Source: Dechloromonas sp.
GTDB lineage: Bacteria > Pseudomonadota > Gammaproteobacteria > Burkholderiales > Rhodocyclaceae
Direction: 5' to 3'
Assembly: GCA_028687035.1 (NCBI GenBank)
Contig: JAQUAX010000001.1
Location: 248,001 to 312,000 of the forward strand
DNA: 64,000 nucleotides
Both the position numbers and the translations under genes were made by a program. The notes under the pieces are model-generated. The model was not told where the DNA came from. It saw only the letters and a program-made list of their open reading frames with translations, and ran no database searches. Position 1 is the first letter of the stretch, and every line of letters starts with the position of its first letter. Below are positions 1 to 40,044 of the stretch, one piece after another.

Positions 1-1483
<1,483 letters not shown>

Positions 1484-1495
1484 CGCGGGCTCCTT

Positions 1496-2314
1496 TCAGG
1501 CGTATTTGCAGAGGATCACGGCGGAAGCCTTGAACACCGCGCAGGCCTGGCCGCCGACGGCGAGGCCGAGCTTGCCGACGCTCTCGTGGGTGACCACGGC
1601 GCACACCGACTTGCCGCTCTTCATCATCAGCGTGACTTCGGAATTGACCGGGCCTTCGTGGATGCGGGTGATCTCGCCCCACAGGTGGTTGCGCGCGGTG
1701 GTCCGGATGTTCGGGTCGTTGAGCAGCAGCACCGACGACGACTTGACCAGCGCGCTGATCTCGCCGCCTATCGTCAGGCCGAGGGCGTCGGCCGAGTCGC
1801 GGGTGATCACCGCGACGATCTCGTTGTCGTCATCCAGCTTCAGGCGCACCTCGAAATCGACGTGGCCCTCGCGCAGCCCGACGATGTGGCCGGCGAACTG
1901 GTTGCGCGCGCTGGTCTTCATCGACAGCCGCTTCAACAGCTGGCGGAACTGCTGAAAATCGCCGGCCTCGCCGTCGTTCATGCTGGCCGTCAGGCGGTCG
2001 AGCGCGGCCTGGTATTCGGCCTCGAGCGCCCGGTACAGCGCGACGACCTTGCGCCCGTACTCGGTCATCTGCGTGCCGCCGCCGTTCCGGCCGCCGGTCG
2101 AGCGCAGCACCAGCGGCTGCTCGGCCAGGTTGTTCATCGCATCGACCGCGTCCCAGGCCGCCTTGTACGACAGCGGCACGGCTTTTGCTGCCTGCGAGAT
2201 CGAGCCGTGCTGATCGATGGCTTCGAGCAGGCGGATCCGGGTATCGCCGAGGAAGGTGCCGAATTCGGAATCGACTTCGAGTTTGCCGCGCAGGCGGTGC
2301 AGGAGACTGTCCAT
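1496..2314 (-). CDS. modE: Molybdate-responsive transcriptional regulator ModE
   Basis: ModE is a dimeric DNA-binding protein that senses cytoplasmic molybdate and represses uptake genes when Mo is abundant. The N-terminal LysR-like winged helix covers about residues 20-110 (GSISQAAKAVPLSYKAAWDA, then STGGRNGGGTQMT). Two tandem Mop/TOBE domains follow, beginning SARNQFAGHI and TARNHLWGEI, and bind oxyanion. At 272 aa it has the usual full-length architecture. I chose the ATG at 2314: the longer frame starting at 2362 would place coding sequence over a ModE operator at 2329-2353, and MDSLLHRLRGKL fits the normal N-terminus. The operator implies autoregulation. It leads an operon with the Cys-Cys protein and two modA genes. 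Confidence 0.95.
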   Translation of the reverse strand: MDSLLHRLRGKLEVDSEFGTFLGDTRIRLLEAIDQHGSISQAAKAVPLSYKAAWDAVDAMNNLAEQPLVLRSTGGRNGGGTQMTEYGRKVVALYRALEAEYQAALDRLTASMNDGEAGDFQQFRQLLKRLSMKTSARNQFAGHIVGLREGHVDFEVRLKLDDDNEIVAVITRDSADALGLTIGGEISALVKSSSVLLLNDPNIRTTARNHLWGEITRIHEGPVNSEVTLMMKSGKSVCAVVTHESVGKLGLAVGGQACAVFKASAVILCKYA

Positions 2315-2504: not shown

Positions 2505-2933
2505 ATGAACGTCAGCGCACGCAATGTATTCAAGGGAAAAATCAGCGCTCTGGTCGATGGCGCGGTCAATGCCGAGGTCGAACTGAGCCTGCCCGGGGGC
2601 GACAAGATTGTCGCAATCGTGACAGAGGGCAGCGTCAGGTCGCTCGGCCTGGCCGTCGGCGGCGACGCGGTCGCCTACGTCAAGGCGCCGTGGGTGATGC
2701 TGCTGGCTGGCCCGCAAGAAGCCCGCTTCTCGGCGCGCAACCAGCTGTCCGGCAAGGTCGCCGTGCTGCACAAGGGTGCGGTCAACACCGAGGTCGGCGT
2801 CGAATTGCCCGGCGGCAGCCTCGTCTACGCGGTGGTCACCAACGAGGCGGTGATGGAGCTGGGACTGAAGGAAGGCGTCGCCGCGACGGCGCTGATCAAG
2901 GCCAGCCACGTCATCCTCGGCGTGCCGGCCTGA
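2505..2933 (+). CDS. modG: Molbindin with two Mop (TOBE) domains
   Basis: This is a 142-aa cytoplasmic molybdate-binding and storage protein of the ModG/Mop type. It consists of two repeats only: residues ~2-68 begin NVSARNVFKGKISAL and residues ~73-140 begin FSARNQLSGKVAVL. Each repeat ends in a K(A/S)..V(M/I)L strand. Such proteins assemble into oligomers that buffer oxyanion. A strong CAGGAG ribosome-binding site precedes the ATG. The gene is transcribed divergently from modE and converges on the DUF2478 gene, 7 bases between stops. A ModE-like half-site lies upstream, so regulation by Mo is plausible. It could also be called mop; the two-domain architecture favours modG. Confidence 0.9.
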   Translation: MNVSARNVFKGKISALVDGAVNAEVELSLPGGDKIVAIVTEGSVRSLGLAVGGDAVAYVKAPWVMLLAGPQEARFSARNQLSGKVAVLHKGAVNTEVGVELPGGSLVYAVVTNEAVMELGLKEGVAATALIKASHVILGVPA

Positions 2934-2940
2934 TCGCGCG

Positions 2941-3462
2941 TCAGCCGCCCGTCCGGGGCAGGCTGTCGAACCAGGCGTCGAGCGCCGCGCGGTCGACCGG
3001 CAGATCGACCGCGAATCCGCCGGTGAAGCGGTGCCAGTCGGCCAGGCGCCGTTCCGGCACGATGGTCAGTACCGGGATGCCGCGGCTCATCAGGTCGAGC
3101 ATCTCGGCGGCGAAACCGCCGCCTTCGGCTTCCAGATTGCTGTAGCGGTTGAACACCGCGAGCTCCGCCCCTTCGGCGGCGATCCGCCGCAGCACGACGC
3201 TCGCCTCGGCGAGCAGGCCCGGGTCGAGGGCGCAGGATTCGGAGCCGGCGCCGAGATCCTGGGTGATCGGGTAGAGGCTGCCGTCGTCGAGATCGACCAG
3301 TACGACCTGGCAGCCGTTGTCACAGTCGCGCATTTCCTGCAGCAGGCCGCGGATGCGCCGGCCGGCCCGGCGCCGGTCCGCGGCGAACCCGGCGAGCAGC
3401 GCGTCGGCCTCGCCGGAACGGGGTGCAACCAGGGCGGCGATGCGGGGCGGGGCGTCGGTCAT
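2941..3462 (-). CDS. DUF2478 family protein (molybdenum-locus associated)
   Basis: This 173-aa protein matches the DUF2478 pattern: an N-terminal strand RIAALVAPRSGEADALLAGF, then LLQEM, CQVVLVDLDDG, and a conserved centre FNRYSNLEAEGGGFAAEM. Members of this family are typically found beside molybdate transport genes and are thought to be nucleotide-binding, but no biochemical role is established to my knowledge. The start at 3462 (MTDAPPRIA) is preferred over a longer frame whose extra residues are low-complexity. No good ribosome-binding site is visible. It lies 61 bases after the di-haem cytochrome gene on the same strand and is probably the last gene of the operon that begins at 8652. Confidence 0.75.
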   Translation of the reverse strand: MTDAPPRIAALVAPRSGEADALLAGFAADRRRAGRRIRGLLQEMRDCDNGCQVVLVDLDDGSLYPITQDLGAGSESCALDPGLLAEASVVLRRIAAEGAELAVFNRYSNLEAEGGGFAAEMLDLMSRGIPVLTIVPERRLADWHRFTGGFAVDLPVDRAALDAWFDSLPRTGG

Positions 3463-3523
3463 GGGCGATGCCGTTTGGAAAAGGATGGAATGATAGCGCG
3501 CGGCGCTACGCCGCGCGCCCCCG

Positions 3524-4852
3524 TTACAGCGATTCGAGGAAGGCGAGCAATGCCCGCCGCGCCTCGGGCGCCAGTTCGACATAGCGCCGGCGGGCCGCCG
3601 CCGCCTCGCCGTCGTGCCAGACCACCGCCTCCTGCAGGTTGCGGGCGCGCCCGTCGTGCAGGTACTGGCTGTGTTCGTTGATCCTCGGTACCAGGCCGAT
3701 TCCCCACAGCGGCGGCGTCCGCCACTGCCGCGGGCCGGCCCGGTAGTCCGGCCGGCCGTCGGCCAGGCCCGGCCCCAGGTCGTGCAGCAGCAGGTCGGTG
3801 TAGGGCGCGATGTGCCGGCCGGCCGTCAGCGGGAAGCGCGGCGCCGGGCCGGTCCGCAGTTCCGGCCGGTGGCAGGCGGTGCAGCCGATCCGCTCGAACA
3901 GTGCAGCGCCGTCCCGGACCTGCGGGGCGTCGGCGTCGCGTTGCGGCGGTGGCGCGACGTGGGCGAGGTAGAACTCGATCGCGTCGAGGTCGGCCGCCGG
4001 CAGCTCGGGGTGGGCGGCCGACGGCGCTACCCGGCAGGCGGCCTGGGCCGCCGTGCAGTTCTCGCTCGGGAACAGCGGCGACGTGATGCCGAGATCGCCG
4101 ACGAAGGCACCGGCGATCTGCTGGCGCAGGTTGGGCATGTTGGCCTTGAAGCCGAAGCGGCCGACGACGTCGCGCCCGGTCGCCACATCGCGCACCCGGT
4201 TGACCCGGCCGCGCACGCCATCCGGCTTGGCCTCGCGTGCCAGGCGGAGCAGCGTCGCGGCCGGTACCGCCTCGAGCAGGCCGAGGCCATAGACCGGCTG
4301 GCCGACGCGCAGCGAATGCAGGCTGCCGTGCAGGTCGCCATAGGCGAGATCGACGAATTCGACCTGCGGCCGGCGCTGCGCGACTTTCTCGCCGCCGGCC
4401 AGGGTGACCGCCGGCAGTTCGATCCAGGACAGCGCGGCCCGGCCTTCGCCGGGCACGCCGGGGACGCCTTCCTCGTTCAGCTGGCCGCCGTAGGCCGGAT
4501 GCGGCTTCGGGCCGCCGTCGGCGGCACGGCCGGGAACCGACAGGCGGACCAGCATCGACAGCATGCGTTCGTCCGGCCCGTCCGGCGCGCGGCCGCGGCC
4601 GTTCTTCTGGTGGCAGGAAATGCAGGCCAGCCGGTTGTACAGCGGGCCGAGTCCGGCCGCCTTGTCGTCGGCCGGGGCGATCACCCAGCTCTGGCGGAAC
4701 AGGCTGCGGCCGCGGAAGAAACGTTCGCGGCCGGCGTCGTCGAGGCCGGGCAGTGGCTGCAGGTAGGCCTCGCGCAGCGCCGCCGCGTCGTCGGCGCGGG
4801 CGTTTGCGGTCGACAGGCAGAACAACGCAAAAATCAGGCACAGGGCGCGCAT
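3524..4852 (-). CDS. Di-haem c-type cytochrome, DUF1111 family (thiol oxidoreductase-like)
   Basis: This is a 442-aa exported cytochrome. A Sec signal peptide (ALCLIFALFCLSTANARA) precedes two CXXCH haem-attachment sites: CISCH near residue 76 and CTACH near residue 325. Around them are features of the DUF1111 / 'di-haem oxidoreductase' family (FRGRSLFRQSW, FGFKANMPNLRQQIAGAF, RTPPLWGIG, YLHDGRARN). These proteins are distant relatives of bacterial cytochrome c peroxidases and often sit next to metal-uptake genes. Here the gene starts two bases after the stop of a periplasmic binding protein gene, with GGGAG inside that gene as ribosome-binding site. A role in changing the redox state or releasing a metal ligand in the periplasm is inference. 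Confidence 0.85.
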   Translation of the reverse strand: MRALCLIFALFCLSTANARADDAAALREAYLQPLPGLDDAGRERFFRGRSLFRQSWVIAPADDKAAGLGPLYNRLACISCHQKNGRGRAPDGPDERMLSMLVRLSVPGRAADGGPKPHPAYGGQLNEEGVPGVPGEGRAALSWIELPAVTLAGGEKVAQRRPQVEFVDLAYGDLHGSLHSLRVGQPVYGLGLLEAVPAATLLRLAREAKPDGVRGRVNRVRDVATGRDVVGRFGFKANMPNLRQQIAGAFVGDLGITSPLFPSENCTAAQAACRVAPSAAHPELPAADLDAIEFYLAHVAPPPQRDADAPQVRDGAALFERIGCTACHRPELRTGPAPRFPLTAGRHIAPYTDLLLHDLGPGLADGRPDYRAGPRQWRTPPLWGIGLVPRINEHSQYLHDGRARNLQEAVVWHDGEAAAARRRYVELAPEARRALLAFLESL

Positions 4853-4854
4853 GT

Positions 4855-6171
4855 TCAGGCTCCCATCCGATCGAGACGGCGGGCGATGTCGCCGCGCCGG
4901 GCGCGGCTGGCCTGCTGCCATTGTGCTTCGAGTGCGTTGGCGGCCGGGGCCGTCGCCGCCTCGCGGCGGTCGCGGAAGGGCGCCAGCAGTGCCGGGTCGG
5001 CCGCCTCGGCGGCGGAAAGCGGCGGCGCCTCGAGCTGCCGGCGAACCGCGCCGACATCGCGCCCGGCCGCTTCCGCCCGGTGCACGCGCCGCCACAGTCC
5101 GGCCAGTTCGCCGTGCTCGCGGGTCAGGGTTTGGGCGAACAGCGCGGCGACCAGGCCGAGGCGGTCGCGCGTCGCGTCGCCGTCATAGTCGAAGACGCCC
5201 CGTTCGGCCGCCCGGAAGGGATCGAAGTAGTCGGCCGGCAGTTCGCGGTAGACGGCCGGGCGGACCGGCAATTTGCGGATGTCGCGGTGCGTGATCAGGC
5301 GCTGGCCGGCGGCCGACAGCACGAAGTCCGCGAAGGCGCGGGCGCCGTCCGGGTTGGGCGCGTCGCGGCAGATCGCGATGTGCGCCGGGTTGATGCCGCT
5401 GTGCGCCGGGTAGGCGAAACGCAGCGGTGCGCCGTTGGCGATCGCCGCGGCCGAAAAGAAGTCGATCGACAGGCCGAGCGGGCACCGGCCGCTGGCGACC
5501 TCGTCGGTGACGAAGGTCGATCCGGCTTCCATGACGCTGCCCGCATTGCCGGCGATCGCGCTCCACACCGCCCAGCCGCGTTCCCAGCCGTAGGCCTGGA
5601 GCACGATGTCGACCATCACCGGCGCGAAGCCGACGCGGCCGGGGTCGGGCAGCGCGATCCGGCCGGACCAGGCCGGCGCCGCCAGTTCGGACCAGTCCTG
5701 CGGTACGGCGAGGCCGAGGCGGGCCAGTTCGGCCGGATTGACGATGAAGCCGTAGCCGGCCATCTCGGTCGCTGCATAGTAGCCTTCGGCGTCGGCCAGC
5801 CGGGCGCGGCCGACGTGCCCGGGCAGGCCGTCGCGGTCGATCGCCAGCGCTTGCCAGGCGCCTTCGGCGGCGAGCGATGCGAAGTTGCGCGGCGATGCGC
5901 TCCAGTAGACGTCGATGCCGGATTGCCGGGGCTGGCGCAGCGTGGGCAGCGCGTCGTGCGGCATGCGCCAGACCAGCTGCAGCCGGTATTGCGGCCAGGC
6001 TTTCTCGAAGGCCGCTTCGAAGCGGGAGAAGACCTCGTCGTTGTAGCTGGTCAGGACGACGACCGGCTGGCGGGACGGGGCCGCCGGTGCGGCGCGGCCG
6101 GCCGCGGGCAGGGCGCCGAGCGCGAGCAGCAGTCGGCGGCGGAGCGCGGAAAAATCGGGATTGTCGTTCAT
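4855..6171 (-). CDS. Periplasmic substrate-binding protein of the Fe3+-type ABC family
   Basis: This is a 438-aa extracytoplasmic binding protein. An Arg-rich signal sequence (ALRRRLLLALGALPAAGRA) is followed by VVVLTSYNDEVFSRFEAAFE, typical of the iron/thiamin-type class of binding proteins, then YWSASPRNF and an AATEMAGYGFIVNP hinge. Most family members end near 340 aa; this one carries about 90 extra residues at the C-terminus that I cannot assign. No ABC permease or ATPase gene is adjacent, so it is an orphan partner of the TonB receptor (8 bases upstream) and the di-haem cytochrome (2 bases downstream). The ligand is unknown; a metal or metal chelate is the best inference from context. 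Confidence 0.85.
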   Translation of the reverse strand: MNDNPDFSALRRRLLLALGALPAAGRAAPAAPSRQPVVVLTSYNDEVFSRFEAAFEKAWPQYRLQLVWRMPHDALPTLRQPRQSGIDVYWSASPRNFASLAAEGAWQALAIDRDGLPGHVGRARLADAEGYYAATEMAGYGFIVNPAELARLGLAVPQDWSELAAPAWSGRIALPDPGRVGFAPVMVDIVLQAYGWERGWAVWSAIAGNAGSVMEAGSTFVTDEVASGRCPLGLSIDFFSAAAIANGAPLRFAYPAHSGINPAHIAICRDAPNPDGARAFADFVLSAAGQRLITHRDIRKLPVRPAVYRELPADYFDPFRAAERGVFDYDGDATRDRLGLVAALFAQTLTREHGELAGLWRRVHRAEAAGRDVGAVRRQLEAPPLSAAEAADPALLAPFRDRREAATAPAANALEAQWQQASRARRGDIARRLDRMGA

Positions 6172-6179
6172 CACGGACC

Positions 6180-8210
6180 TCACAGGGGCAGGTTGAATTG
6201 GGTGAAATAGCCGCGGCCGGCTTCCGGGTAGCCTTCGCTGATCGTGTACAGGCGGTCGAACAGGTTGTAGACGCCGGCCTCGACCAGCAGACCGCCGGCG
6301 AAGCGGTAGCCGGCCTTCAGGTTGAACACCGCGAAGCCGGGTGCGCGCTGCCGGCCGTCGCTCGACGAGTAGCGCCCCGACATCGCATTGACGCTGGAAC
6401 TCAGCGTCAGCGGCCCGGTGGGGCGCCAGATCAGCGCGGCAAACAGCTTGTGGCGCGGACTGTCGGTCAGCTGCAGCCCGTCGTCGCCCCGGTTGCGGCG
6501 GTCGAGGAAGCTGTAGGCCGCGTCGAGTTCGAGATTGCGCCGGAGCTCGCCGTGGGCGCCGAACTCGAGGCCGGCGGCGCTGCTGCGGGCGACGTTCTGG
6601 TTCTGCGTGCAGTTCGGGTTCGGATTGCTGCAGGCGCCGGCGGCGATCACCGACGACTGGATCAGGTTGTCGACGTCGCTGTAGAACACGAGGGCTTCGC
6701 CGGTCCATCGGCTGCCCAGGCGGTCGCTGTAGCCGACCTCGAAATGCGTGGCTTCCTCGGATTCCAGGCCGGCGTTCGGGATCGCGCTGCCGAGCTTGTA
6801 GGAGTAGCGTTCCTTGATCGTCGGAAAGCGGCTCTTGCGGGCGATGCTGGCCGACAGCAGTCCGCTCGGCGAGAGCCGGTAGCGCAGGCCGATCTGTGCG
6901 TTGGTCGCGTCCTTGTCGCCGCGGGCGAAATCCGAAACGATCCCGGTCGAGCTGTTGTAATCCTCGGCCTGCAGCGTCTTGCGCGTGTCGTAGCCGAGGC
7001 CGGCGACCAGCGACAGCCGTTCGCCGAGGCGCTGGCTGTCCTCGAGATTGAACGACTGCGTCCGGTCGCGGAAATGGCGTACCGGCTGGCCGCGGTCGTG
7101 TTCGCGGTGGACGTCCTCCTTGTAGTGAAAAGCGGTTTTCAGCTGGTTGCCGTCGGCGAGCCTGAATTCGCCCTCGACGCTGAAACCGTCGGTGTAGTCG
7201 TCGTACCAGCTCTGGAAGGCGTATTTCTTCGTCTGCGTCGTGTAGGTCGCGTCGTCGTACGAGAACAGCGAATTCCTGAAGGTGTCGTGGTAGGCCCGGA
7301 ACTTCAGCCGGTGTTCGCCGATCGCGGTGTTGGTCAGCAGGTAAACGCTGTCCTTGTCCCAGTACGGCCAGCGCCAGTAGCGCGGCATGATGCCGGCGAC
7401 CCGTCCGGCGTAAGGCGGCGTTCCCTTCTGGCCGTGCTGGCTGATGAAGTTGATCGCGTACTCGTCGGTCGCGTTCGGCGTCAGCCCGAGCTTCAGGTTC
7501 AGCTTGCGGTCGGTGTGGTCGCTGTTGTCGCGGCGGCCGCCGGCGTCGCCGGGGCTCGGCACGTAGCTGCCGGGCAGCGCGTAGTGGTCCTGTTCCAGGT
7601 AGGAGGCGCCGATCTGGGCGTACCAGTTGCCCTGGTTGGTGCCGAGGTTGGTGTAGCTGTGGTAGCCGTTGGCCGATCCGTTGTCGTCGAATCCGAAACC
7701 GCCGCCGATCTCGCCCTCGAAGGCGGCCGCCGGCCGGCGGCTGATCAGGTTGATCGCGCCGCCCAGCGTGTTCGGGCCATAGACCATCGAGCTGAAACCG
7801 CGGGCGACCTCGATGCGCGACAGGTCGAAGGTCGTGAAGCGACCGAGATCGACGTAGCCGTCGTACGGCACGTAAATCGGGATGCCGTCGATGAAGACCG
7901 GGACCTGGCGGAGATCGAAGCCGCGGATGCTGGCCGTCTGCTCGTTGCGGGCCCCGAATCGCGCGCCGGTGACGCCGGGCAGCAGGTCGAGCGCGGTGCC
8001 GACGGTGTGCTTGTCGTGCTGGCGGATGTCCTCCAGTTCGATCTGGCTGGCGCCCAGGCTTTCCTCGCCGGCCGGCGTGGCGACGACCTGGATTTCGCCG
8101 AGTGCGAAGACCTGGGCTTCAGCCGCCGCCAGCGGGGCGGCGACGCCGATTCCGGCGAGCAGCGCGCATAGCCGCTGGCAGCGGGTGGGCGGACGTGGTT
8201 TCTCGTGCAT
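6180..8210 (-). CDS. TonB-dependent outer-membrane receptor
   Basis: This 676-aa outer-membrane receptor takes up ligands at the expense of TonB energy. The signal peptide (LCALLAGIGVAAPLAAAEA) is followed by a TonB-box-like region (EIQVVATP) and a plug domain (~45-165: LDLLPGVTGARFG, SIRGFDLRQVPVFIDGIPI, GPNTLGGAINLI). A 22-strand-type barrel runs to the end (NLKAGYRFAGGLLVEAGVYN, YTISEGYPEAGRGYFTQFN). The ATG at 8210 follows a GGGAG ribosome-binding site; an upstream in-frame start lacks one. It lies in the operon whose promoter region at 8653-8795 carries a ModE box, a sigma-54 promoter and NifA sites. That context suggests uptake of a metal chelate for nitrogenase rather than general iron uptake. 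The ligand cannot be read from the sequence. Confidence 0.93.
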   Translation of the reverse strand: MHEKPRPPTRCQRLCALLAGIGVAAPLAAAEAQVFALGEIQVVATPAGEESLGASQIELEDIRQHDKHTVGTALDLLPGVTGARFGARNEQTASIRGFDLRQVPVFIDGIPIYVPYDGYVDLGRFTTFDLSRIEVARGFSSMVYGPNTLGGAINLISRRPAAAFEGEIGGGFGFDDNGSANGYHSYTNLGTNQGNWYAQIGASYLEQDHYALPGSYVPSPGDAGGRRDNSDHTDRKLNLKLGLTPNATDEYAINFISQHGQKGTPPYAGRVAGIMPRYWRWPYWDKDSVYLLTNTAIGEHRLKFRAYHDTFRNSLFSYDDATYTTQTKKYAFQSWYDDYTDGFSVEGEFRLADGNQLKTAFHYKEDVHREHDRGQPVRHFRDRTQSFNLEDSQRLGERLSLVAGLGYDTRKTLQAEDYNSSTGIVSDFARGDKDATNAQIGLRYRLSPSGLLSASIARKSRFPTIKERYSYKLGSAIPNAGLESEEATHFEVGYSDRLGSRWTGEALVFYSDVDNLIQSSVIAAGACSNPNPNCTQNQNVARSSAAGLEFGAHGELRRNLELDAAYSFLDRRNRGDDGLQLTDSPRHKLFAALIWRPTGPLTLSSSVNAMSGRYSSSDGRQRAPGFAVFNLKAGYRFAGGLLVEAGVYNLFDRLYTISEGYPEAGRGYFTQFNLPL

Positions 8211-8250
8211 GTTGTTCTCCCTGGTTGAAACGATCAAAAACCGGCCGGTG

Positions 8251-8652
8251 TCAGCGCGGCATGTCCGTGCTGAAAGCGTAGAAACCGCGCGCCGGATGGC
8301 ATGGTCCGGCGCATTCCCGGCGGAAGACCAGCCAGCGTCCGTCGCGCAGGCGCCAGGCGGCCATTTCCTCGCTGCGGCTGACGATTTCGTAGAACTCCTC
8401 GTCGTCGTCCGATGCCGGCTCGGTCAGCTGGAAACGGTGGGCGGTGAAGCAGGGGCGGTCGTCGGCGTCGTAGCCGACCGAGCGCTGCGCGGCGATCTCG
8501 TATTCGCTGTAGTGATCGAAATACAGGGGCGGCTCGACGGCATCGCGCCACTCGGCCGGGAGCTGGCGGCTCCAGCCGTTGGCGAGTTTCCTCGCCGCAT
8601 TCAGGCCGGCGTCGAGGTGCATCCTGCGGAGGCAATGGGCTGGTCGGTTCAT
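8251..8652 (-). CDS. Unknown protein leading the NifA/ModE-controlled uptake operon
   Basis: This 133-aa soluble protein matches no family I recognise. It has a charged N-terminal helix (LDAGLNAARKLANGWSRQL), a central YFDHYSEYEIAAQRS segment, an acidic run (ASDDDEEFYEIV), and two late cysteines near ECAGPCHPARG. No signal peptide or membrane segment is seen. The start is uncertain: an ATG at 8712 is excluded because the sigma-54 -24 element would lie inside the gene; ATG at 8652 directly abuts the ModE box; ATG at 8622 is also possible. None has a good ribosome-binding site. It is the first gene of the operon, 40 bases before the TonB receptor start, so a cytoplasmic or regulatory job in metal uptake is plausible but unproven. 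Confidence 0.7.
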   Translation of the reverse strand: MNRPAHCLRRMHLDAGLNAARKLANGWSRQLPAEWRDAVEPPLYFDHYSEYEIAAQRSVGYDADDRPCFTAHRFQLTEPASDDDEEFYEIVSRSEEMAAWRLRDGRWLVFRRECAGPCHPARGFYAFSTDMPR

Positions 8653-8680
8653 CTTTAAATATAGTGATGTATATAACGAT
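8653..8680 (-). promoter_or_regulatory. ModE operator in the uptake operon leader
   Basis: The right arm TATATAACGAT (8670-8680) is a perfect match to the ModE consensus; six bases away the left arm AAATATA is partial. It begins one base before the first gene and covers the predicted transcription start of the sigma-54 promoter at 8692-8707. Mo-loaded ModE bound here would block transcription. Confidence 0.75.
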
Positions 8681-8691
8681 GAACCAGACAT

Positions 8692-8707
8692 AGCAAAGGT
8701 GATGCCA
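8692..8707 (-). promoter_or_regulatory. Sigma-54 (-24/-12) promoter of the uptake operon
   Basis: Minus-strand sequence TGGCAT-CACCT-TTGCT matches the sigma-54 consensus TGGCAC-N5-TTGC with one mismatch and has the invariant GG and GC at the correct spacing. It points at the gene at 8251-8652, about 40 bases upstream of its start. Confidence 0.75.
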
Positions 8708-8759
8708 GGCATAAATTCGGGTCATTGGCCCGATTTACGCCAGTTTCCTGGTTTCGATG

Positions 8760-8775
8760 TGTAAAAAAATATACA
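8760..8775. promoter_or_regulatory. Possible NifA upstream site (TGT-N10-ACA), AT-rich
   Basis: TGT, ten A/T bases, ACA. The spacing is exact, but the interior lacks the CG...CG flanks of the other sites, so this one may be fortuitous or may be an AT-rich bending region (IHF-like). Confidence 0.45.
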
Positions 8776-8779
8776 GCGT

Positions 8780-8795
8780 TGTCGGCAAGCCGACA
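8780..8795. promoter_or_regulatory. NifA upstream activator site of the uptake operon
   Basis: TGTCGGCAAGCCGACA is a perfect 7-bp dyad that matches TGT-N10-ACA and the extended TGTCG-N6-CGACA form shared by other sites in this window. It lies 73 bases upstream of the -24 element, a typical distance for NifA. Confidence 0.72.
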
Positions 8796-8811
8796 GGCGG
8801 GCGGCCGAGCG

Positions 8812-10254
<1,443 letters not shown>

Positions 10255-10284: not shown

Positions 10285-10300
10285 TGCAAGGGAAGTGCCA
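10285..10300 (-). promoter_or_regulatory. Sigma-54 promoter of the ferredoxin-nifZ-nifF operon
   Basis: Minus-strand TGGCAC-TTCCC-TTGCA is a perfect -24/-12 element, 31 bases upstream of the ferredoxin start. Confidence 0.88.
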
Positions 10301-20341: not shown

Positions 20342-21961
<1,620 letters not shown>

Positions 21962-21983: not shown

Positions 21984-23573
<1,590 letters not shown>

Positions 23574-23715: not shown

Positions 23716-23730
23716 TGGCACGCCTTATGC
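23716..23730 (+). promoter_or_regulatory. Sigma-54 promoter of the rnf operon
   Basis: TGGCAC-GCCTT-ATGC: perfect -24 half, one mismatch in the -12 half. It is 36 bases upstream of the rnfA start. Confidence 0.78.
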
Positions 23731-23765
23731 GATGGTCGGCCCGTCACCAATTCGCGATTCCCGAC

Positions 23766-30709: not shown

Positions 30710-30725
30710 TGGCATTCCTTTTGCT
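30710..30725 (+). promoter_or_regulatory. Sigma-54 promoter of nifE
   Basis: TGGCAT-TCCTT-TTGCT has one mismatch to consensus and correct GG/GC spacing. It is 29 bases upstream of the nifE start. Confidence 0.85.
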
Positions 30726-35851: not shown

Positions 35852-35867
35852 TGGCGCGCTCCTTGCT
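35852..35867 (+). promoter_or_regulatory. Sigma-54 promoter of the nifN operon
   Basis: TGGCGC-GCTCC-TTGCT has the invariant GG and GC with correct spacing and one mismatch in the -24 half. It is 36 bases upstream of nifN. Confidence 0.83.
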
Positions 35868-39996: not shown

Positions 39997-40011
39997 TGGC
40001 ACGGGGCTTGC
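39997..40011 (+). promoter_or_regulatory. Sigma-54 promoter of iscA-nifU-nifS
   Basis: TGGCAC-GGGGC-TTGC is a perfect -24/-12 element, 34 bases upstream of the iscA start. Confidence 0.88.
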
Positions 40012-40044
40012 GAAAGCTTTGCCATCCAAACCGGGAGAACTGCC

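Follow-up and report, generated by a model that had tools for sequence, protein, structure and literature searches.

The closest described counterparts of the locus reported here are the ModABC molybdate transporter under ModE control, siderophore systems of the Cir/FepA/FbpA type and the NifA regulon of nitrogen fixers. We analysed a 64,000-nucleotide window from Dechloromonas sp. (assembly GCA_028687035.1, contig JAQUAX010000001.1, positions 248,001 to 312,000), a portion of the nif region in a 3.3 Mb genome, and in it an operon of five minus-strand genes at 2941-8652 with its promoter to their right. Its core is a trio of genes for a TonB-dependent outer-membrane receptor, a periplasmic binding protein and a di-haem c-type cytochrome (DHOR/DUF1111). 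The trio resembles ModABC in its ModE box, its linkage to molybdenum (Mo), the adjacency of the genes and a putative inner-membrane path for molybdate; it differs in that ModABC is without an outer-membrane part or a cytochrome, whereas the five-gene operon holds no permease or ATPase gene of its own (modB and modC sit in the nearby mod operon). With the siderophore systems it shares the folds of receptor and binding protein, and TonB or ExbBD genes adjoin some trio loci; unlike them, it carries ModE and NifA signals rather than Fur signals, lacks the FbpA tyrosines and has a di-haem cytochrome as its third member. NifA-regulon promoters have TGT-N10-ACA sites upstream of a -24/-12 element (consensus in the available part of PMC7294313), as does the promoter studied here, but its target is an envelope uptake operon with an added ModE box.

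Partial parallels are found in other systems. MolABC-type transporters (MolBC-A) combine a BtuF-like binding protein with a FecCD permease, and such genes likewise occur near some trio loci, although the MolABC-type binding protein is of a different family from that of the trio (according to the available part of PMC4031551). At the anfA promoter of Azotobacter vinelandii, a sigma-54 element likewise accompanies a putative ModE site and transcripts are Mo-repressed, but that promoter drives a nitrogenase activator rather than uptake genes, and the accessible portion of the source (PMC9542535) describes no pairing of a NifA site with a ModE box. The sole described outer-membrane step for molybdate that we found, in the accessible parts of PMC8602904 and PMC11734730, is ModA-IcmP with type VI secretion in Pseudomonas aeruginosa. 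A. vinelandii also makes Mo-binding compounds that are taken up (available text of PMC3440940), and in Azoarcus olearius mod genes go up when nitrogen is deficient (available text of PMC8467165). The open-licence PMC literature, as far as its accessible text goes, yielded no TonB receptor for the A. vinelandii compounds; it also yielded neither a ModE-controlled TonB receptor for Mo nor the trio itself, which is weak evidence of absence.

On the sequence evidence set out below, we consider it probable that the operon encodes a ModE-repressed, TonB-driven scavenger of Mo or of a Mo chelate, acting at the outer membrane and in the periplasm, feeding ModABC and standing under NifA in diazotrophs. 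A preliminary description of the window had proposed an operon under joint NifA, sigma-54 and ModE control that imports a metal chelate for nitrogenase, an interpretation that is partly supported as a whole. Gene content, the kept gene order, the promoter elements with their conservation and the genomic linkage are direct observations.

The promoter carries every element that had been claimed for the five leftward genes. Two NifA-type upstream activator sites of the form TGT-N10-ACA, TGTCGGCTTGCCGACA at 8780-8795 (site 1) and TGTATATTTTTTTACA at 8760-8775 (site 2), are centred near -106 and -86 on the minus strand, followed on that strand by a match to the sigma-54 -24/-12 motif, TGGCATCACCTTTGCT (TGGCAT-N5-TTGCT), at 8692-8707. 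From the usual -24/-12 spacing, transcription would start at about 8681. A minus-strand ModE box then matches 18 of 20 positions of the E. coli consensus, ATCGNTATATA-N6-TATATANCGAT (PMC545781), against which all ModE scores were taken, out of 20 and with spacers of 5-8 allowed. The preliminary description had rightly seen this box but placed it at 8653-8680; the palindrome spans 8651-8680, about +2 to +31, and touches the start codon of the first gene, smallA. A second ModE-like palindrome (15/20) at 8753-8780 overlies activator site 2. Both NifA-type sites, the sigma-54 element and the ModE box are kept in the alignment with the closest relatives, loci L034 and L096.

When sigma-54 matches of at least 10/12 with a TGT-N10-ACA site 40-170 bases upstream were counted, the window held 8 such pairs against 0.05 expected per shuffled window (40 shuffles), and the operon promoter was the only one with two activator sites. 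The other seven pairs (2461-2476, 10285-10300, 23536-23551, 23716-23731, 30710-30725, 35852-35867 and 39997-40012) are expected in a nif region. At the sequence level the locus bears the marks of both regulons: a palindrome at the promoter and modE in the genome, and a -24/-12 element with upstream TGT-N10-ACA and nifA in the genome. The nifA gene at 20342-21961 (minus strand; TIGR01817, 669.7 bits against a cut-off of 528.85) is likely the activator of this sigma-54 promoter, and modE at 1496-2314 (minus strand; ModE_repress domain, 106.9 bits against 98.5) probably encodes the protein that recognises the ModE boxes.

The operon's ModE box ranks first in the whole window; the next-best scores are at 2439-2466 (15), 8753-8780 (15) and 2328-2355 (14), and the boxes at 2328-2355 and 2439-2466 lie in the modE-mop intergenic region. 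A search of the 3.3 Mb genome for the ModE core, allowing no more than 3 mismatches, gives 5 places. Four of these fall between C11:250330 and 256778, one pair at modE-mop and another at the uptake operon. A backwards-pattern control gave 3 places genome-wide, so the clustering rather than the number exceeds chance. Around the fifth place, C19:71231, no mod, nif or uptake gene was recognised by eye.

The same signals recur at related promoters. ModE scores of at least 15 were found in 33 of 55 trio promoters and in 6 of 191 controls taken from the same loci; at a threshold of at least 16, the counts were 26 of 55 and 0 of 191. A sigma-54 score of at least 9 with a suitably upstream NifA-type site was present in 22 of the 55 promoters, against 3 of the 191 controls. 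These promoters were delimited by intergenic boundaries, after duplicates (L021, L024-L030), L036, L059, L070, L081, L085, L094, three stretches that were too short (L044, L047, L055) and one without gene calls (L040) had been left out. The choice of boundary shifts ModE scores: going from other boundaries to those counted takes L048 from 13 to 16, L051 from 14 to 8 and L053 from 16 to 11. Two Azospirillum argentinense plasmids, from two strains of this one species, each have a ModE box of score 16 before the trio genes; they were examined after the control counts and stand outside the 55. Chance controls, the three-genome footprint and the 55 related promoters together support the predicted control by NifA/sigma-54 and ModE.

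The position of the box varies among these promoters. ModE scores of at least 13 occur in 51 of them; in 23 the box lies on one of three NifA/sigma-54 promoter parts, and in 28 on none. It is at the transcription start in L034, L048, L049, L058, L093 and L096, as in the window operon; over the -24/-12 element in L076, L077, L082, L083, L086, L087, L088, L089 and L091; and around TGT-N10-ACA in L038, L045, L046, L060, L061, L064, L068 and L069, as with the window's second box. Several boxes in the three layouts score 13-14, which some controls also reach; the pattern is therefore safer than any one case. In several boxes over the -24/-12 element, TATATTGCG is common to one half-site and the -12 part.

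The trio recurs in beta-, gamma- and alphaproteobacteria and in one verrucomicrobial metagenome-assembled genome (MAG). The binding protein was matched (E <=1e-40) in 13 of 150 family genomes, and 10 of the 12 besides the window's own carry receptor, binding protein and DHOR in order, including L027, whose receptor is cut by a contig end, and L026, whose DHOR was called as two frames (7825-8992, probably a frameshift). Two family matches at 31-32% identity belong to other ATP-binding cassette (ABC) systems. A scan of named genomes yielded 63 loci with the binding protein, in hosts that include Zoogloea, Azoarcus, Derxia, Stutzerimonas kirkiae, Methylobacter, Solimonas, Dyella, Mixta, Cedecea and the verrucomicrobial MAG. 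A receptor precedes and a DHOR follows in 50 of the 63 binding-protein genes called (the scan loci plus L022 and L023); of the remaining 13, a contig end truncates 4 and 9 differ in arrangement. Derxia has no adjacent trio-type receptor, the receptor follows in Dyella, and it is divergent in Mixta and Cedecea. On the A. argentinense plasmids (L134, L135) the order is binding protein, DHOR, receptor, TonB gene; a further plasmid match, H3, proved not to be the trio. In L111 and L054 the trio has ExbB and ExbD genes beside it.

A class-wide profile search with the binding protein gave matches in 9 of 274 genomes, with the trio only in the window genome and in G436 (L111). Around six more distant binding proteins (31-39% identical), the called genes included no DHOR or TonB receptor, and no ModE score was above 12; ABC permease or ATPase genes lie near the distant binding protein in L112, L113 and L114. 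The ninth match, L116, is outside the neighbour count, with no gene calls around it.

The trio is often linked to mod genes. Across 51 loci of at least 12 kb, mod genes are near the trio in 27, BtuF/FecCD-type ABC genes in 7 and nif genes in 8, and any of these in 34. The BtuF-like binding-protein or FecCD permease genes (L045, L050, L053, L061, L067, L092, L096) possibly encode a Mol-type molybdate transporter; those of L092 were verified by Pfam. Several of these loci also hold a second TonB receptor. In Stutzerimonas kirkiae (L091 7876-12592) the trio lies between nifHDK and nifE-nifN; in the verrucomicrobial MAG (L037 3659-13527), which has no nifD match, it lies between a molybdopterin enzyme-flavoprotein reductase fusion and mop. 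Genes were called with a simple script, which leaves the start codons of relatives approximate, and neighbours were labelled by BLAST against genes named partly by eye, the key ones being verified by profile.

Most genomes with the trio or its binding protein have a nifD match. In the family sample, nifD is present in 9 of 11 trio genomes and in 56 of the other 139 (Fisher p 0.010), and of the 47 scanned genomes with the binding protein, drawn from 50 of the 63 scan loci, 34 match nifD, 30 of them over the cut-off; the class base rate over the cut-off is 25 of 274 genomes. Both trio genomes of the class sample have nifD, that of G436 in two pieces under the cut-off. The finding that would have refuted the preliminary interpretation, a trio conserved mainly in non-diazotrophs, is not borne out, but nor is the trio confined to nitrogen fixers: 13 of the 47 scanned genomes and 2 of the 11 family trio genomes have no nifD match.

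The two control signals part company in such genomes. Of 12 promoters from genomes without a nifD match (L056 among them, as it lies on the same contig as G135, which had none), 10 have a ModE score of at least 15 and none has a sigma-54/NifA pair, which is present in 22 of the other 43 (p 0.0016). Those 43 comprise 37 from nifD-match genomes (17 with the pair), five without nifD status, and L077, a 2.3 Mb MAG with no nifD match and with nifS beside the trio; moving L077 to the nifD-negative group gives 1 of 13 against 21 of 42 (p 0.008). A tree test of nifD against the pair, with L056 left unlabelled, found 6 independent pairs differing in nifD; 2.9 went the expected way and none the other (median p 0.25), a number too small to reach significance. 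In the 12 promoters from genomes without nifD, ModE boxes are thus mostly kept and the NifA pair is absent. Mo therefore looks like the common signal, to which nitrogen fixation is added; the putative NifA part is nearly confined to genomes in which nifD is present or nifD status is lacking.

The receptor (6180-8210, minus strand, 676 aa) has plug and beta-barrel domains, PF07715 and PF00593, both over the cut-off, and falls under the cut-off of TIGR01783, the TonB-dependent siderophore receptor family (132.8 against 223.5 bits). The binding protein (4855-6171, minus strand, 438 aa; SBP_bac_6, SBP_bac_1, SBP_bac_11) has a predicted structure (predicted local distance difference test, pLDDT, 92.5) of the FbpA/AfuA fold with a helical C-terminal extension, and its structure matches are P5PA, AfuA and FbpA. 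In FbpA, two adjacent tyrosines are the iron ligands. They align here with Phe238 (40 of 40 sequences) and Phe239 (39 of 40), DFF replacing Tyr-Tyr; FbpA-like iron binding was rejected because both positions hold phenylalanine, and 'Fe-type', the earlier label, describes the protein poorly. As the top fold matches bind sugar phosphates and pyridoxal phosphate, the model makes a ligand that bears an oxyanion plausible. TIGR01256 (ModA) is absent from the protein's NCBIfam matches up to E 0.01, and both neighbouring modA genes match it over the cut-off. A twin-arginine-like start is found in 25 of 40 binding-protein sequences. The cytochrome (3524-4852, minus strand, 442 aa) matches PF06537 with 254.2 bits and has two CxxCH motifs and two further cysteines, invariant in 34 of 34 aligned sequences; its predicted model weakly matches bacterial di-haem cytochrome c peroxidases. 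DUF1111 genes, we presume, also lie near icmP.

The same features bear on other explanations of the operon. Iron or iron-siderophore uptake for nitrogenase assembly, with ModE merely signalling changed nitrogenase needs, would suit a receptor whose profile is nearest Cir-, FepA- and PfeA-type structures and a binding protein of the FbpA/AfuA fold, but the FbpA tyrosines are replaced, the neighbours are mod genes, and ModE boxes are retained in genomes without nifD. Nor do the promoters speak for iron: with a Fur pattern that is printed in PMC545781, the best scores in the 55 trio promoters (scanned from 400 bases before to 40 bases into the receptor or binding-protein gene) averaged 10.33/18 against 10.08 for shuffled sequence. 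Iron uptake under Fur was rejected on the absence of a Fur signal above chance across these promoters, and we hold the iron explanation as a whole to be improbable. Uptake of vanadium, tungsten or a broad set of oxyanion or catecholate chelates when Mo is short would fit ModE repression, which suits a substitute metal, and the BtuF/FecCD-type ABC genes of some loci. It also gains from genome G149, where the trio shares a contig with a nitrogenase alpha-type gene that scores 366 bits, which we provisionally place in the range of the V/Fe types, and from G094 and G127, which have such matches too. We give this explanation little credence, because the window genome has one nifD-profile match at E <=1e-100, of the Mo type, whereas the V/Fe-range matches elsewhere (E ~1e-107 to 1e-112) fall within that limit, and because trios with ModE boxes occur in genomes without nifD matches. 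Of the metals first suggested for nitrogenase, Mo is favoured, and iron and vanadium are weaker, with no Fur signal, no FbpA tyrosines and no V/Fe-nitrogenase-like match in the window genome. A system for periplasmic redox defence or sensing, with the cytochrome as a peroxidase, an organic ligand for receptor and binding protein, and nif control by neighbourhood, seems very unlikely: Pfam labels DHOR a putative peroxidase and the weak fold match agrees, but the coupling to a TonB receptor and binding protein is conserved (50 of 63 binding-protein genes called), and peroxide defence leaves the ModE boxes unexplained.

Several observations weigh against the Mo scavenger that we favour. No mod, BtuF/FecCD-type or nif gene lies nearby in 17 of the 51 loci, and 10 of the 55 trio promoters have a ModE score below 14; the trio promoter stretches are also longer than the controls with which they were compared (309 bases on average, the controls 248). 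Among solved structures the receptor comes closest to the colicin I/catecholate, enterobactin and B12 receptors, so its sequence alone does not point to molybdenum, and binding proteins of this fold take many ligands, among them iron, sugar phosphates and pyridoxal phosphate. No chelator-making genes were noticed nearby, though no search was aimed at them. Genomes G062 and G112, of the same genus, have nifD without such a binding protein, so nitrogen fixation in general does not depend on the system. In L077 the sigma-54/NifA pair occurs although no nifD match exists, and the relatedness of the sequences makes the Fisher values overstate independence.

For a ModE-repressed Mo scavenger we infer binding and regulation, substrate, cytochrome role, hand-over to ModABC and smallA role along the following lines. 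With Mo plentiful, molybdate-loaded ModE on the +2 to +31 box would block transcription, perhaps also occupying the second box over the activator site. With Mo scarce and nitrogen fixation under way, NifA near -86 and -106 would activate sigma-54 polymerase at 8692-8707. TonB-ExbBD would power the TonB-dependent receptor, which would then import molybdate or a Mo chelate; the periplasmic binding protein would hold the imported Mo species, and the di-haem cytochrome may aid metal release through a redox change of the metal or its ligand. Free molybdate would cross the inner membrane via the neighbouring ModABC and be passed on to nitrogenase, a last leg on which smallA may act.

The smallA gene (8251-8652, minus strand, 133 aa) comes first in the operon, with its start at 8652 set by alignment with L034 and L096 where the gene caller had 8622. 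It has no Pfam or NCBIfam match, and among 10 relatives two show a weak match to PF09330, with a best E of 0.0032. Of the 150 family genomes, 32 have a member, and each of the 32 is one of the 65 genomes with a nifD match (Fisher p 8e-15); in the class sample a member was found only in the window genome, so smallA looks like a family-level trait. In 27 of 29 loci a mod or nif gene is at most four genes away from it, with nifQ in 10 of these; L142 was counted through a profile-confirmed modA, and of the two remaining loci L148 has no such gene and smallA is uncalled in L160. Members across loci L120-L133 and L138-L166 are mostly beside mod genes or nifQ, or inside nifENX clusters. Although it heads the trio operon in the window, smallA is mostly not linked to the trio; its distribution makes it a candidate molybdenum-handling factor for nitrogenase.

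The gaps from smallA through receptor, binding protein and DHOR to the last gene, which encodes a DUF2478 protein (2941-3462, minus strand, 173 aa; PF10649), are 40, 8, 2 and 61 bases. To the left of the operon lie mop (2505-2933, plus strand; two TOBE domains of the molybdenum-pterin-binding type), modE and then a mod operon of two modA genes, modD, a nifX-like gene (identified by eye), modB and modC, where the genes after the first modA (561-1298, minus strand; profile match over the modA cut-off) are mostly past the window edge. The two modA genes form a tandem pair (G000:C11 247791-249298), both over the cut-off. To the right are a flavodoxin gene, nifZ and a 2Fe-2S ferredoxin gene. A 101-codon minus-strand frame at 8812-9117, with an apparent ATA start overlapping the nifF stop and no Pfam match, resembles by eye a 101-aa gene after nifF in L124 and L144. 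The same genome has nifH and nifD on another contig, with nifK after them (by eye).

We advance a bolder composite reading tentatively, and hold it as rather doubtful when its parts are taken jointly. It would make the trio the first known TonB-receptor route for Mo across the outer membrane, have its cytochrome reductively free chelated Mo, and give diazotrophs an AND gate that answers to lack of Mo together with nitrogen fixation, with the ModE box on one of three promoter parts (transcription start, -24/-12 element or NifA site). Within this reading smallA would be a new factor that carries Mo from ModABC towards NifQ and nitrogenase. Little is known about the passage of molybdate or Mo chelates through the outer membrane in nitrogen fixers, and the conserved, ModE-boxed TonB module is a concrete candidate for that route. 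Its promoter looks like a two-input switch that bacteria have seemingly assembled in three geometries, and the smallA family may offer a handle on the delivery of Mo to the nitrogenase cofactor.

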